A DNA stretch of 32,722 bases from Methanomassiliicoccaceae archaeon (GTDB lineage Archaea > Thermoplasmatota > Thermoplasmata > Methanomassiliicoccales > Methanomethylophilaceae). Shown here piece after piece: positions 388 through 6,820 of the stretch; positions within the stretch are counted from its first letter, which is position 1, and each line of letters opens with the position of its first letter. The position numbers and the translations under genes were made by a program. A model generated the notes under the pieces. That model was not told the DNA's origin, did not search any database, and saw nothing but the letters and a program-made list of their open reading frames with translations. The DNA is taken from positions 1 to 32,722 of the forward strand of contig PWHV01000004.1 in the NCBI GenBank assembly GCA_003555025.1. Reading direction: 5' to 3'.

Positions 388-406
388 CGCCCACCCTCGG
401 AGTGCT

Positions 407-425
407 GAAAAAAGGTTAAAATACG
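407..425 (+). promoter_or_regulatory. Promoter of second ferredoxin
   Basis: GAAAAAAGGTTAAAATACG ends 31 bases before the second ferredoxin ATG and nearly matches the element at 172-188. The two ferredoxins are therefore probably transcribed from separate, duplicated promoters and not only as one operon. Confidence 0.55.
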
Positions 426-456
426 ATTATCAGCTTTCATGCGCTGAGGTTTCGAA

Positions 457-624
457 ATGGTCGTTAAGATAGACATTGACGAATGCACCGCCTGCGGCGC
501 GTGCGCGGACATATGCCCCGAGGACGCCATCACCGTGGATGACCACGCCGTGGTGGATGCCGACCTGTGCATTGACTGCCACAACTGCATCGACGAGTGC
601 CCGGTTGACGCCATCACCGAGTGA
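457..624 (+). CDS. 2[4Fe-4S] ferredoxin, copy 2
   Basis: A 55-residue paralogue of the preceding gene with the same layout: CTACGACADICP-type first motif at residues 10-21 (read as CTACGACADICP) and CIDCHNCIDECP at 38-49, giving eight cluster cysteines. It should carry electrons at low potential. Differences from copy 1 lie mainly between the motifs and are mostly conservative, which suggests that both copies are functional. A GAGGT ribosome site precedes the ATG. It ends 59 bases before the stop codon of the convergent ferredoxin reductase-like gene. A T-rich stretch with the AAACC signature (648-670) follows and probably ends the transcript. Confidence 0.9.
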   Translation: MVVKIDIDECTACGACADICPEDAITVDDHAVVDADLCIDCHNCIDECPVDAITE

Positions 625-647
625 GCGCTCCGCAGGAAAAACCTGAG

Positions 648-670
648 AAACCTCTTCCTTTTACTGTTTT
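648..670 (+). terminator. Pyrimidine/T-run terminator after ferredoxin 2
   Basis: AAACC followed by a C/T tract and TTTTAC, then a further TTTT run, directly after the ferredoxin gene. The same arrangement recurs after several other genes in the window (see findings). No hairpin is needed for archaeal termination. Confidence 0.4.
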
Positions 671-683
671 AAGGGCCAGATGA

Positions 684-1622
684 TCAGGCCCAGTAAGGCT
701 TCTTCACGTACTTGTAGGCGCTGTTGGCGGCGGTGGCGGCCTCGCCGCAGGCGGTCACGATCTGCCTGTACTTTCCGGTGTAGATGACCACGTCGCCACA
801 GCCGAAGACCCCTGGGCGCGAGGTCCTCATGTCACTGTCCACTCTGATGAGGCCGTTGTCGTCCATGTCGAGACCCCAGTTCTTGAGGTCCTCGAGGTCG
901 GGGGTGCTACCGATGTTGATCACCACCAGGTCCGCGGGGATATCGAACGTCTCCCCTCCCCTCTCCACCGTCACTGACTCCACCTGGGAGCCGCCGTTGA
1001 TGGACAGGGGGACGGTCTCCATCATGCAGCTCACGCTGCTCTTTTGCAGCGATTCCACGACGCTCTCGTCGGCGCGGTAGCAGTCGCGGCGGTGCATAAG
1101 CACGGCGTCAGCGACGCTGTCGGCGATGATGGCCATCTCCAGGGCGCTGTTGCCGCCGCCGACCATCACCACCCTCTTGTCCACCAGCTTGTCCTTCTCC
1201 GGGAGAACGTAGTCCACTCCCTTGCCGCAGAACTCCTCTTCGCCGGGCACGCCGAGGCGGCGTGGTTTGAACAACCCCATGCCTATTGCCACGACCACCG
1301 CCTTGGAGCGGTGCTGACCCTCCTCGCATCCGACCACGAAGCACTCGCCATCCCGCTCGATGGTGAGGGCGCGGCAGCCCTCGGCGATCTCGCATCCCAT
1401 GGACTCCGCGTGCGCCACCAGCCTCTCCGACAGCTTCTTTGCCTGGACCTCGGCGAAGCCAGGATAGTTGTGTATGCCCTTGTCAGGATATAGGCTGATG
1501 AGCTGTCCGCCGGCGGAGGCGGCATCGAGGACCAATGTCTTCATCTTCCTCGACCTGGCATAGATCCCGGCGGTCAGACCGGCGGGGCCAGCGCCGATCA
1601 CGATGAGGTCGTGGGTCATCAT
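684..1622 (-). CDS. Thioredoxin-reductase-like ferredoxin-NAD(P)+ reductase
   Basis: A 312-residue flavoprotein with an N-terminal FAD Rossmann motif (VIGAGPAG near residue 6) and a central NADP motif (VGGGNSALE) followed by HRRDCYRAD, whose arginines usually hold the NADPH phosphate. It lacks the CxxC that thioredoxin reductases carry between these two domains. It has the GGQLISLYPDK and PGF features and the C-terminal GEAATAANSAYKY tail seen in the TrxR-like ferredoxin-NADP reductases (YumC type). The neighbouring ferredoxins support this role. I start at the ATG at 1620-1622 (a second ATG follows at once); the frame stays open 31 codons further upstream but into the promoter region. Divergent from the ferritin gene. 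A generic pyridine nucleotide-disulfide-family enzyme is the alternative. Confidence 0.8.
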   Translation of the reverse strand: MMTHDLIVIGAGPAGLTAGIYARSRKMKTLVLDAASAGGQLISLYPDKGIHNYPGFAEVQAKKLSERLVAHAESMGCEIAEGCRALTIERDGECFVVGCEEGQHRSKAVVVAIGMGLFKPRRLGVPGEEEFCGKGVDYVLPEKDKLVDKRVVMVGGGNSALEMAIIADSVADAVLMHRRDCYRADESVVESLQKSSVSCMMETVPLSINGGSQVESVTVERGGETFDIPADLVVINIGSTPDLEDLKNWGLDMDDNGLIRVDSDMRTSRPGVFGCGDVVIYTGKYRQIVTACGEAATAANSAYKYVKKPYWA

Positions 1623-1782
1623 TCTTCCAACCGATACAATGTATAATAATTTTGTCCAGTGTTTCAACGGGACTCTCCGCGACCACCGTCCTCCTTCAAG
1701 GAGGGGACGGTCCAAACAAGAATCTGGGAGGCGGGAAAACCTTAAATCCGTCCGGTCGCAATCGATTCATGAGGTAAGACGA

Positions 1783-2301
1783 ATGCTGTCTAAGACCATG
1801 GAGAAAGGCCTCAACGAGCAGATGGTGGCGGAGACCTACTCCGCCTACCTGTACTGGTCGATGGCCGCCCACCTGCACGACCAGGACTATCCCGGGATGG
1901 CTCATTGGATGGAATGCCAGGCCAAAGAGGAGCTGTCCCACGCGGTCAAGATCTACGGCTACATGATGGAGAGGGGCTCGAAGGCGAGGATGTCAGCCAT
2001 CGACGAGCCCCCCTCGGAATGGGACTCCCCCCTCCATGTGATGGACAGCGTCCTCGACCACGAGAGGAAGGTCACGGCGATGATAAACGCCCTGATGGAC
2101 AAGGCCATCGACGAGAAGGACCATGCCAGCAACCAGTTCCTGGCATGGTTCGTCACCGAACAGGTGGAGGAGGAGAGCACCGCCTCCGCGATACTGTCGC
2201 GGATGAAGAAGATGGGGGATTACGTGCAGGGGCTCATCATGCTCGATGACGAGCTGGGGTCCCGCAAGCCCCTCTACGACCTGCTTCCCAAGTCCGAATG
2301 A
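1783..2301 (+). CDS. Ferritin (non-haem iron storage)
   Basis: A 172-residue ferritin, the usual length for FtnA-type proteins. It oxidises Fe(II) at a di-iron ferroxidase centre and stores iron inside a 24-mer shell in the cytoplasm. The helical bundle ligands are visible: E17 in the ETYSAYLYW segment, E-x-x-H in KEELSHA at about 50-53, E in DHERKV near 94 and the EQVEEE segment near 127. The start is the ATG at 1783 behind a GAGGT site; the frame is open upstream but that part covers the promoter (CTTAAATC near 1741). It sits opposite the ferredoxin reductase-like gene, which could supply electrons for iron release. Confidence 0.92.
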   Translation: MLSKTMEKGLNEQMVAETYSAYLYWSMAAHLHDQDYPGMAHWMECQAKEELSHAVKIYGYMMERGSKARMSAIDEPPSEWDSPLHVMDSVLDHERKVTAMINALMDKAIDEKDHASNQFLAWFVTEQVEEESTASAILSRMKKMGDYVQGLIMLDDELGSRKPLYDLLPKSE

Positions 2302-3963: not shown

Positions 3964-4000
3964 CAAACCTTTTCCCGTAAACCCCTTCCCTTACTTTTTA
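3964..4000 (+). terminator. Pyrimidine/T-run terminator after stomatin
   Basis: CAAACC, then TTTTCCC, a further C/T tract and a TTTTT run, starting two bases after the stop codon. Fits an archaeal U-tract terminator for the nfeD-stomatin operon. Confidence 0.45.
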
Positions 4001-4028
4001 ACCCTGTTCCACCATAACGGAAGACGCG

Positions 4029-4661
4029 ATGCGCGAGATCTACATGCAAGGCGATGACGACGCCACGGTGTTGCTGCAGGGTCTGGAGGGTCGGGGCGCA
4101 GAGCCTTGGTCGCTGCGGGCGAGGCCGGCGCTGCTGGTCATGGACATGCAGTCGTTCTTCCTCGACGAGTGCTCCCCCGCATTCCTGCCCTCGGCGCCGG
4201 CCATACTCCCGCGCCTGAGATTGCTGGTGGACTCTTTCCGCTCCCGCGGCCTGCCGGTGGTCTTCACCGTGCACCGCGACCGCGACGGTCCGATGCAGCG
4301 CTGGTGGGGCCGCAGCCTGGACGAGGAATGGTCGCAGGCGCCCGCCATAGCCCCCGCCGAGGGGGAGGGGCTGCTGGTCAAAGACGTCTACGACGCGTTC
4401 TGCGATCCTGACCTCGAAGCTCTACTCGAGCGCGCCGAGGTCGGTACGCTGGCGGTCACAGGCGTCTGCGCCCATCTCTGCGTGGAGTCCACCGCCCGCT
4501 CCGCCTTCTGCCGTGGCTATCAGGTGGTGCTGCCCGCCGACTGCGCCGCCGCCCATAACCTGAACCTGCACCGCGGGTCCCTGGCCTCTTTGGCCCATGG
4601 GTTCGCCCACGTCACCAGCTGCCATGAGCTCATCTCCAAGTTGGAGGGCCGTCATGGTTGA
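4029..4661 (+). CDS. Isochorismatase-family cysteine hydrolase
   Basis: A 210-residue cysteine hydrolase of the isochorismatase/nicotinamidase superfamily. The catalytic triad can be placed: D39 in LLVMDMQ, K118 in LLVKDVYDAF and the nucleophile C151 in TGVCAHLCVESTAR. The cis-peptide region TGVCA just before C151 is also typical. The substrate cannot be read from sequence; nicotinamide, isochorismate or other amides and ureides are possible. It is the first gene of a four-gene operon in which every neighbour overlaps the next, so it probably acts in the same process as the flavoprotein and radical SAM protein downstream. Confidence 0.85.
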   Translation: MREIYMQGDDDATVLLQGLEGRGAEPWSLRARPALLVMDMQSFFLDECSPAFLPSAPAILPRLRLLVDSFRSRGLPVVFTVHRDRDGPMQRWWGRSLDEEWSQAPAIAPAEGEGLLVKDVYDAFCDPDLEALLERAEVGTLAVTGVCAHLCVESTARSAFCRGYQVVLPADCAAAHNLNLHRGSLASLAHGFAHVTSCHELISKLEGRHG

Positions 4662-5517
4662 GATGGTGGTCATCGGCGGCGGCCCGGCGGGGATGGCGGC
4701 GGCGCTCCAGTGCTCGAGGTCAGGCATGGAGGCCGTACTCTTCGAGAAGGGGGAGCTGGGGGGCCTGCTGCGCGAGGCCAACCTGGTGGAGAACTACCTC
4801 GGCTTTCCTGGAGGGCTCCCCGGCGCCGAGCTGTGCTCACGGTTCAGCGAGCAGCTCCGCCGCCAGGGCGTGGAGGTCCGTAGGGAGGAGGTCCTTTCCC
4901 TAGACCACGACGGCGAACGCTTCGTCATCCGTACCGCCGAGGGGGAGGAGAGGGCCGAGATGGCGATCATGGCCACGGGCACCGTCCCTTCCCGCCCCGG
5001 GACGGGTCTCGCCGCCGACGGGGAGCTGGTGTTCGACAGCGTGCTTCCGCTGGCGGATTGGAGGGGGATGAGCATCGCCGTCCTGGGGGGAGGGGATGCC
5101 GCCTATGACTACGCCCTACGCCTGTCGGCGGCGAACACCGTGACGATAGTCAGCCGCTCTTGCCCGCGCTCCCTCCCCCTGCTCCGGAAGAGGGCGGAGG
5201 GATCGCCCTCGGTGTCGATACTTGACCGCGCCGCGTTGACGGGAACACGGCGGACGGGAGGCCGCCTGTCCATTGATCTGATGCACAACGGCAGCCCCCT
5301 CGCCCTGGAGACGGACGCGTTGCTGCTGGCAGTGGGGAGGGATCCCGCCGACGGCCTGCTGAGAGGGCCCTTGCGGGACCGATCGGAATCACTTATCAAG
5401 GATGGCGTGTTCTACATTGCGGGCGACGTCGTCAACGGCCATCGGCGTCAGGCGGCCATCGCCGCCGCCGACGGCATCAGGGCGGCCATGGGGGCCCGGG
5501 AGACGAGGGAACGATGA
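4654..5517 (+). CDS. FAD-dependent pyridine-nucleotide oxidoreductase (TrxR-like fold)
   Basis: A 287-residue flavoprotein. The FAD-binding GGGPAGMAAA is at the N-terminus, a central NAD(P) motif (VLGGGDAAYDYA) near residue 146, and a C-terminal FAD-contact motif (YIAGDVV) near 250. No CxxC is present, so it is not a classical thioredoxin reductase. It probably passes electrons from NAD(P)H to an unknown partner, perhaps the radical SAM enzyme or a ferredoxin. The ATG at 4654 overlaps the previous gene by eight bases; the frame is open further upstream inside that gene, but that extension has no family resemblance. Its stop overlaps the next start by four bases (ATGA). Confidence 0.82.
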   Translation: MVEMVVIGGGPAGMAAALQCSRSGMEAVLFEKGELGGLLREANLVENYLGFPGGLPGAELCSRFSEQLRRQGVEVRREEVLSLDHDGERFVIRTAEGEERAEMAIMATGTVPSRPGTGLAADGELVFDSVLPLADWRGMSIAVLGGGDAAYDYALRLSAANTVTIVSRSCPRSLPLLRKRAEGSPSVSILDRAALTGTRRTGGRLSIDLMHNGSPLALETDALLLAVGRDPADGLLRGPLRDRSESLIKDGVFYIAGDVVNGHRRQAAIAAADGIRAAMGARETRER

Positions 5518-6440
5518 TGGATGTCCTGGCATCTACAGGCAGGGACGATGTGGCAACGGTCTATGTGGCGGAAGGCACCCGCGGCCGGCGCCTGGAGTTC
5601 GTGGAGTCGGTGCAGCCTCCGTTGACGCGGGAGGAGAAATGGGTCCTCATCATCTCCACGCTCTACGGCTGCCCGGTGGGATGCAGGTTCTGCGACGCCG
5701 GCGGCTCCTTCCACGGACGGGTGGACAAGGCCGAGATGCTCGCCCAGCTCGACCACATGGTCCTGCGGCGCTACCCCGACGGCAGGGTCCCTTCGGAAAA
5801 GTTCAAGGTGCAGTTCTCCCGCATGGGCGAGCCCGCTTTCAACGACGACGTTCTGGAGACCATGCGGGAGCTGCCGCGGCGATATGACTCCCCCGGGCTG
5901 ATGCTGTCCCTCTCCACCATCGCCCCTGCGGGAAGAGACGGGTTCTTCGACCGCCTGCTAAATGTGAAGAGGGAGCTTTACCAGGACAGCTTCCAATTCC
6001 AGTTCTCCCTGCACAGCACTGATGAGGAAAGAAGGTCGTGGCTCATTCCTCGCAGGACCTGGAGCATGGAGCGCATGGCCGCCTACGGTGCGGAGATGCG
6101 CCGCGGAGACAGCAGGAAGGTCACGCTGAACTTCGCTGTGGGCGAAGGGAGCGAGATCGACCCCGATGCGCTGCTACGTTATTTCGACCCCCGCGACTTC
6201 GTCCTCAAGCTCACCCCCGTCAACCCCACCCACAACGCCAGGAGCAACCATATCCGCAACAGCCTGGACAGCGGACTGGCCGACACCCTGGGACAGGCAG
6301 GCTATGATGTCATACTGAGCATAGGCGAGGCCGAGGAGAACCTCATCGGCAGCAACTGCGGCCAATACCTGAAGGCGTACGAGTCCGACGGAGGGCTCCC
6401 TGGAGGGTACAGCTACCCGTTGCAGGACACGAGGGGATGA
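5514..6440 (+). CDS. Radical SAM protein related to RlmN/Cfr
   Basis: A 308-residue radical SAM protein. The cluster motif CPVGCRFC lies at about residues 53-60. Further features match the RlmN/Cfr RNA-methylating family: a SRMGEP motif near 103, SLHSTDEERR near 163, and NCGQ near 286, corresponding to the C-terminal CGQ whose cysteine carries the methyl group in RlmN. The cysteine that RlmN has seven residues before the cluster motif is replaced by isoleucine here. It may therefore methylate or modify a different substrate, or act by another route. Starts within the preceding stop (ATGA) and overlaps the next gene the same way, so all are coupled. Confidence 0.78.
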   Translation: MMDVLASTGRDDVATVYVAEGTRGRRLEFVESVQPPLTREEKWVLIISTLYGCPVGCRFCDAGGSFHGRVDKAEMLAQLDHMVLRRYPDGRVPSEKFKVQFSRMGEPAFNDDVLETMRELPRRYDSPGLMLSLSTIAPAGRDGFFDRLLNVKRELYQDSFQFQFSLHSTDEERRSWLIPRRTWSMERMAAYGAEMRRGDSRKVTLNFAVGEGSEIDPDALLRYFDPRDFVLKLTPVNPTHNARSNHIRNSLDSGLADTLGQAGYDVILSIGEAEENLIGSNCGQYLKAYESDGGLPGGYSYPLQDTRG

Positions 6441-6820
6441 ACTCTCCGCACGCGTTGTACGGGACCCTTCGCCGCGGCGGCGCCCTGCATCATGCCTACC
6501 GCATCGACGAATGCCCGTTCATCGGCGAGGCCGAGCTTCCCGGTCTAGCGCTGGCGGTATGCCCAGGGGAGGGATTCCCCCGCGCTGTCCCCCGCGAAGG
6601 CAGCATCGTGAAGGCGGAGCTCTACCGGCTCCCTCCTCGGATGGCGGAGGCCGTACGCGCCATGGAGGAGGCCGCGGGCTACGTGCTGGAGCCTGCCAAG
6701 GCCATTAGCGGGGGAGAGTACGAGGATGTGCTGGTCTTCATGCACCGCGGCCCCTGGCGCGATTGCGAGCTGCTCGCCGGCGGCGATTGGGCCGATTTCA
6801 AAGGGTTCAAACCCCTTTGA
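6437..6820 (+). CDS. Gamma-glutamylcyclotransferase-like (AIG2/GGCT) protein
   Basis: A 127-residue protein of the AIG2/GGCT fold. The substrate-loop motif LYGTLRRGG is at residues 7-15, and a MEEAAGYV segment near 80 resembles the region that carries the catalytic glutamate. Members release 5-oxoproline from gamma-glutamyl amines, but small archaeal members are poorly characterised. The start overlaps the radical SAM stop by four bases (ATGA), making it the last gene of the operon. It meets a convergent gene at its 3' end, the two overlapping by 14 bases under a perfect hairpin. Confidence 0.7.
   Translation: MNSPHALYGTLRRGGALHHAYRIDECPFIGEAELPGLALAVCPGEGFPRAVPREGSIVKAELYRLPPRMAEAVRAMEEAAGYVLEPAKAISGGEYEDVLVFMHRGPWRDCELLAGGDWADFKGFKPL

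Follow-up and report, generated by a model that had tools for sequence, protein, structure and literature searches.

A conserved three-gene cassette of anaerobic archaea and bacteria couples a variant RlmN/Cfr-fold radical SAM protein to a flavoprotein and a cysteine hydrolase

Three adjacent genes of a Methanomassiliicoccaceae archaeon, encoding a cysteine hydrolase (g1), a flavoprotein (g2) and an RlmN/Cfr-fold radical SAM enzyme (g3), keep together in many anaerobes, archaeal and bacterial alike, and, therefore, very probably form one undescribed pathway. That the three constitute one functional module can be held with near certainty. As to their function, we infer a three-enzyme anaerobic pathway in which class-A-like radical C1 chemistry acts on a substrate that is not RNA and is probably small and anionic, a reading to which we give an even chance. 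The genes are located in a window of 32,722 nucleotides, i.e., the whole stretch of DNA that was analysed. The source genome, of 1.41 Mb, is 97% complete, and its two nearest named relatives are Methanomassiliicoccaceae MAGs.

In the window, four open reading frames on the + strand overlap each other between positions 4029 and 6820. The g1 and g2 frames share 8 bases, while g2/g3 and g3/g4 share 4 bases each, in both cases ATGA. This arrangement, which had been noticed in a first-pass annotation, was confirmed from the listing of open reading frames and the sequence. The enzyme families named in that annotation were borne out as well, by matches to PF00857 (g1), Pyr_redox_2 (g2) and PF06094 (g4) and by the similarity of g3 to RlmN and Cfr, and we agree with its statement that no known pathway matches these enzyme classes. 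The g1 gene (4029-4661, + strand) encodes a 210-aa cysteine hydrolase of the isochorismatase/N-carbamoylsarcosine amidase fold. It is followed by g2 (4654-5517, + strand), encoding a thioredoxin-reductase-like FAD/NAD(P)H oxidoreductase of 287 aa without a redox CxxC, g3 (5514-6440, + strand), encoding a 308-aa RlmN/Cfr-fold radical SAM enzyme without the N-terminal RNA-binding domain, and g4 (6437-6820, + strand), encoding a GGACT/AIG2-like protein of 127 aa. A longer mechanical start of g2 is present at position 4597; the start was put at 4654 because the aligned relatives begin at the equivalent position. All four genes end with a TGA stop codon, and the GC content at third codon positions is 0.80-0.85 in each of them, which fits real coding. 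A TATA-like element, TACTTTTTAA, was read directly at positions 3992-4001 of the + strand, ~28 bases 5' of the g1 start, suggesting a likely single promoter for the operon.

A scan of a genome collection for g3 yielded 33 loci besides the window's own record. The archaeal loci belong to Methanomassiliicoccaceae, other Thermoplasmata including DHVE2, Heimdall-, Loki- and other Asgard archaea, and a Methanospirillaceae MAG. The bacterial loci span about ten lineages, i.e., Fermentibacterota, Krumholzibacteriota, Cloacimonadota, WOR-3/Hydrothermus, Phycisphaerae, Zixibacteria, Fraserbacteria, Aegiribacteria, Polyangiaceae and a deltaproteobacterial MAG. Since nearly all hosts of the trio are MAGs, some of these taxonomic labels may result from misbinning. 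In nearly all of the 33 loci, the genes lie on the same strand in the order g1, g2, g3, mostly with overlaps, and the repetition of this order over phyla means that the adjacency is not due to chance. Where enough upstream sequence was available, g2 adjoins g3 at 85 of 89 loci, with some genomes counted repeatedly, and g1 lies at most 3.5 kb from g3 at 35 of 45 loci, counts that are incompletely deduplicated. In one genome (G098), g2 and g3 form a single open frame of 631 codons with a short linker (L075/L108). The genes flanking the cassette vary by lineage and offer no clue to a pathway. A comparison of the neighbourhoods of all four families thus disproves for g1-g3, which are found together across phyla, the possibility raised in the first-pass annotation that the genes are never adjacent elsewhere.

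The association extends to genomes in which the genes are unlinked. The g3 profile matches 58 of 390 Thermoplasmatota genomes and 25 of the 148 genomes of the sampled Asgard group. Over the 390 Thermoplasmatota genomes, no score of the g1 profile falls between 184 and 168 bits, and copies scoring at least 180 bits were considered to be of the cassette type. Such a copy is present in 54 of the 58 g3-positive genomes versus 1 of the 332 g3-negative ones (Fisher p ~3e-60), and in this sole exception (G051), the start of g3 is found, cut, at a contig end. Four g3-positive genomes lack a g1 of this strength: G343 contains a partial g1 match of 140 bits, G109 and G120 are 68-72% complete, and G090, 90% complete in 590 contigs, has no such explanation. 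When six genomes without g1 near g3 were checked (G343, G425, G098, G519, G078 and G333), a homologue of g1 (140-279 bits) turned up at another site in all six. Two of them, the Asgard genomes G519 and G078, have no g2 beside g3 either, and there g1 and g2 form a pair away from g3. The g1 profile was made from linked copies, which raises the scores of cassette-type g1, but the unlinked copies are outside the profile, so that circularity is limited. The g2 profile gives a poorer separation from other thioredoxin-reductase-like proteins.

Pairwise distances among g1, g2 and g3 are correlated (Mantel r 0.86-0.92). In the g3 tree, the archaea do not group as one clade (AU p 0.017), with the genus of the window placed among bacteria, away from the rest of its order, a topology consistent with transfer of g1-g3 as a horizontally mobile unit. 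The distribution of the cassette is patchy (9 of 61 relatives), which would fit an adjacency that arose by chance or within particular lineages without any shared function. This explanation, to which we leave virtually no weight, is refuted by the occurrence of the trio in unrelated contexts over two domains, by the co-occurrence of linked and unlinked copies, and by the g2-g3 fusion.

The fourth gene is a local addition. The g4 protein matches PF06094 (GGACT) with 47 bits against a cut-off of 22.8 (E 4e-12), a family with a GGCT-like fold. In its motif region, AMEEAAGY, an Ala may stand in place of the catalytic Glu; the alignment to PH0828 is weak. Among the loci compared, g4 was found in the window's genus only. 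At one locus (L012), it is arranged as in the window, whereas it is not beside the cassette at another locus of the same genus (L046). In the nearest relative (L011/G005), a 1.68-kb insertion interrupts it near codon 44, with g1-g3 being intact; this insertion contains a long transposase-like open reading frame and has perfect inverted ends, GCCTGACTTCGACAGTTTG and CAAACTGTCGAAGTCAGGC, and a TGGA target duplication. Judged by its distribution, g4 is a genus-specific passenger outside the conserved module, and it was rejected as a member of the system because it is restricted to the genus and broken in a relative. That all four genes form one pathway, in which g4 would trim a gamma-glutamyl or amide group, is therefore very improbable, even though g4 and g3 share 4 bases in the window and are arranged likewise at L012. 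Of the four-gene operon proposed in the first-pass annotation, g1-g3 stand as a conserved unit, whereas the adjacency of g4 is a feature of the same genus; with the cyclotransferase outside the system, a gamma-glutamyl trimming step has no basis.

The g3 protein gives a weak match to PF04055 and matches below cut-off to the NCBIfam models PRK14464 (47/422 bits), RlmN (35/290) and Cfr (28/550). Its AlphaFold2 model, built with 31 sequences (pLDDT 91.6, pTM 0.90), finds 6fz6, E. coli RlmN and Cfr as best fold matches in the PDB, and its best PDB profile match is Cfr 9p0p (E 3e-12). With RlmN, the class A methyltransferase of C2 in 23S rRNA A2503 and tRNA A37, g3 shares the fold (Foldseek E 1e-13 to 1e-17), the GEP motif and the cluster motif CxxxCxxC, whose cysteines C53, C57 and C60 are invariant. 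With Cfr, which methylates C8 of 23S rRNA A2503, it shares the beta-extension and the C-terminal loop. Active-site residues were mapped from alignments rather than from model coordinates. S165, H167 and N237 are conserved and correspond to SAM-binding positions in RlmN. The invariant C282 is the equivalent of C355, the methyl carrier of RlmN, and of C338 in Cfr. The equivalents of RlmN Glu105 and Met176 are kept as well: in a second homologue set, E28 and E31 are present in 40/40 sequences and M104, the counterpart of M176, in 39/40; E28 is also invariant in the first set, and E28, not E31, is paired with E105 by the profile alignment. In RlmN, E105 deprotonates the methyl-carrier cysteine, and M176 has a stabilising role (PMC9692996).

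In other respects, g3 differs from both methylases. The profile alignment begins at residue 66 of Cfr, and the N-terminal helical (HhH) RNA-binding domain is absent. None of the homologues checked has the resolving cysteine (C118 in RlmN, C105 in Cfr): its position holds I, L, M or V, with I46 in the window, whereas this cysteine is present in 10/10 RlmN copies from bacterial g3 host genomes. Its loss in RlmN or Cfr traps a protein-RNA crosslink (PMC9692996, PMC13001441). Polar active-site residues are altered relative to RlmN (K98, Q100, R103, Q163, N206, K232 and S269). Cfr residues Ser151, Ser153 and Arg327, which bind the RNA phosphate/backbone and the ribose of A2503 (PMC13001441), are replaced by invariant Lys98, Gln100 and Ser269, and Arg103 takes the place of the Gly preceding the MGEP motif; the extra Lys and Arg suggest that the substrate carries an anionic group. 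The net charge of g3 is below that of the RlmN from the same genome in 9/9 pairs. Nine bacterial hosts contain a full RlmN besides g3, and a role of g3 as an RlmN replacement was, therefore, rejected for them; a full-length RlmN was not seen in the archaeal g3 hosts checked. Together, the lost HhH domain, the changed RNA-gripping residues, the lower charge and the retention of RlmN by the host argue for a non-RNA substrate, which we hold with good confidence. Thus, of the label RlmN/Cfr-like in the first-pass annotation, the fold stands, but RNA modification is less likely than the label implies. Since the resolving cysteine is a defining feature of class A and is missing here, we regard g3 as a variant related to the class A radical SAM methylases and not as a member of that class. 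It also scores far under the NCBIfam cut-offs and is always coupled to g1 and g2.

Each of the three proteins belongs to a known superfamily. The g1 protein matches the isochorismatase family (E 1e-36), and its catalytic triad D39-K118-C151 is conserved. Its AlphaFold2 model (pLDDT 89.7) finds maleamate amidase and N-carbamoylsarcosine amidohydrolase as best Foldseek matches, with biuret hydrolase also close. N-carbamoylsarcosine amidase, maleamate amidase (NicF/Ami) and biuret hydrolase have the fold and the Asp-Lys-Cys triad in common with g1, but the identity is only ~22-34% in the best fold matches, and g1 has its own conserved set, i.e., H82, W92, W93 and R157. To our knowledge, none of the three has a radical SAM protein as a partner. 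The proximity of the model to them makes it likely that g1 hydrolyses a C-N bond of the amide or ureido type, and it is probable that g1 acts on the same substrate chain as its partners.

The g2 protein was identified as thioredoxin-reductase-like in the family search and retains both dinucleotide-binding motifs and the FAD motifs, as found in thioredoxin reductase and TrxR-like ferredoxin-NADP reductase. In contrast to thioredoxin reductase, it lacks the redox-active CxxC of the NAD(P)H domain, which is absent at the corresponding site in 27/27 homologues; no cysteine is conserved across these 27, and a CxxC near the C-terminus occurs only in six Fermentibacterota. With the redox CxxC missing, g2 is therefore no thioredoxin reductase but, by its motifs, an NAD(P)H-flavin oxidoreductase. 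The fusion described above suggests that g3 is the electron acceptor or channel partner of g2 and, together with the adjacency at most loci, strengthens the earlier idea that g2 may act in the service of g3. We lean towards g2 as the electron source for g3.

In the proposed mechanism, g3 would bind a 4Fe-4S cluster and SAM and would methylate its own Cys282, with Glu28 as the activator. A 5'-deoxyadenosyl radical would then generate a Cys-S-CH2 radical on Cys282, from which an sp2 carbon in a substrate other than RNA would receive the one-carbon unit; Lys98, Gln100, Arg103, Gln163 and Lys232 would hold this substrate. That Cys282 is the methyl carrier seems moderately probable. As the resolving cysteine is missing, the reaction must end differently, and the adduct might be resolved by another base or by a reductively supplied electron. 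Electrons from NAD(P)H could be delivered by g2 to g3, either to the cluster or to a thiyl radical, or be used in reduction of the product, and g1 would cleave a C-N bond (amide or ureido), either in the precursor or in the product, before or after the action of g3. However, the established turnover of RlmN and Cfr requires the resolving cysteine (PMC9692996, PMC13001441) and, hence, the methylation step may be absent in g3 altogether. Our broader proposal is tentative: a cross-domain class-A-type radical SAM family may naturally work without the resolving cysteine in a three-enzyme metabolite or cofactor pathway of anaerobes, ending the Cys-S-CH2-substrate state by a new route, perhaps via the flavoprotein.

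Two other explanations would change the role of g3. It could be a compact RlmN/Cfr-like rRNA or tRNA methyltransferase that uses another resolving base, with g2 as its reductase and g1 salvaging a base or repairing a side product. All nearest relatives of g3 in fold and sequence are RNA methylases, the beta-extension of Cfr/RlmN and the NCGQ loop are kept, and an RNA target is possible in the archaeal hosts, given that no full-length RlmN was seen in those checked. Nevertheless, this role is unlikely for a protein that has lost the HhH domain and the RNA-contacting residues of Cfr, that is less positive than the host RlmN and coexists with it in the nine bacterial hosts, and whose obligate partner is a C-N hydrolase, an activity without a place in known RNA methylation. 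Alternatively, g3 might not methylate at all, and Cys282 could donate a hydrogen atom, as happens in radical SAM epimerases, or be a redox relay of another kind, in which case the trio would epimerise, reduce or rearrange its substrate. Cys282 is the only other invariant cysteine and is placed where a substrate radical could be quenched, such chemistry works without a resolving cysteine, and g2 could re-reduce the thiyl radical. A donor cysteine, however, would not need the conserved E28/E31 and M104, which makes this option doubtful in comparison with the proposed one-carbon transfer to a non-RNA substrate.

Several links to other systems were considered and discarded. Short open reading frames (18-110 aa) near the cassettes recur, among the matches listed, mainly between close relatives and support no precursor peptide of RiPP maturation. 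None of g1-g4 matched a PADLOC model for anti-phage defence. The cassette lies downstream of a biotin operon only in Fermentibacterota, and CbiM/CbiQ-like cobalt-transport genes stand beside g3 at one Lokiarchaeota locus only. For a selenium trait, an isochorismatase-like gene is linked to orphan SelD in PMC9312934, whose passages on it describe no such trio.

In the full-text literature open to search, no description was found of the trio as an obligate unit or of a family-wide loss of the class A resolving cysteine. If the proposed reading is true, the trio would extend radical SAM class A chemistry beyond RNA, and it poses the question of how an RlmN fold turns over without a cysteine thought to be essential for product release. 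Moreover, three genes annotated to superfamily level only gain one shared function to test. Hosts of the trio include complete single-contig genomes, so that tests of it need not rely on fragmented MAGs.

In one Thermoplasmatota genome (G098), the flavoprotein gene g2 and the radical SAM gene g3 are naturally fused: at contig C95 (L075/L108, positions 393-2285, minus strand), they are joined as a single open frame of 631 codons. The pair formed by the hydrolase gene g1 and g2 lies apart from g3 in two Asgard genomes (G519:C3, 27720-29253; G078:C195, 3145-4699), and all three genes are kept. In one DHVE2 genome (L038 and L110), g2 is broken into two frames (L038:9209-10017) by a frameshift or an assembly error, and g1 is found on a separate contig.

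A second hydrolase subfamily was found in a profile search of Thermoplasmatota genomes, where it scored 141-169 bits against the g1 profile. Its hosts (G179, G181, G187, G193, G222, G239, G269, G278, and G299) belong to a single family of the phylum (f34) and all lack g3. This subfamily could provide a clue to the ancestral activity of g1.

Upstream of the cassette, the window encodes a second thioredoxin-reductase-like flavoprotein (684-1622, minus strand), which is 25% identical to g2 and is possibly a TrxR-like ferredoxin-NADP reductase. The CxxC motif is also absent from its same-genus orthologues, and its position upstream of the cassette is that found in the genus. It is adjoined by two tandem, near-duplicate small ferredoxin genes (220-387 and 457-624), each with two 4Fe-4S motifs. 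After a ferritin-like gene (1783-2301) come an NfeD-like and an SPFH/Band 7 gene type, and this run also precedes the cassette in the same-genus loci L012 and L046.

In the closest relative (L011, G005:C50), the GGACT-like gene is interrupted by an insertion sequence of ~1.68 kb (L011:11055-12734), which carries a long transposase-like ORF and has 19-bp perfect inverted ends and a TGGA target duplication.
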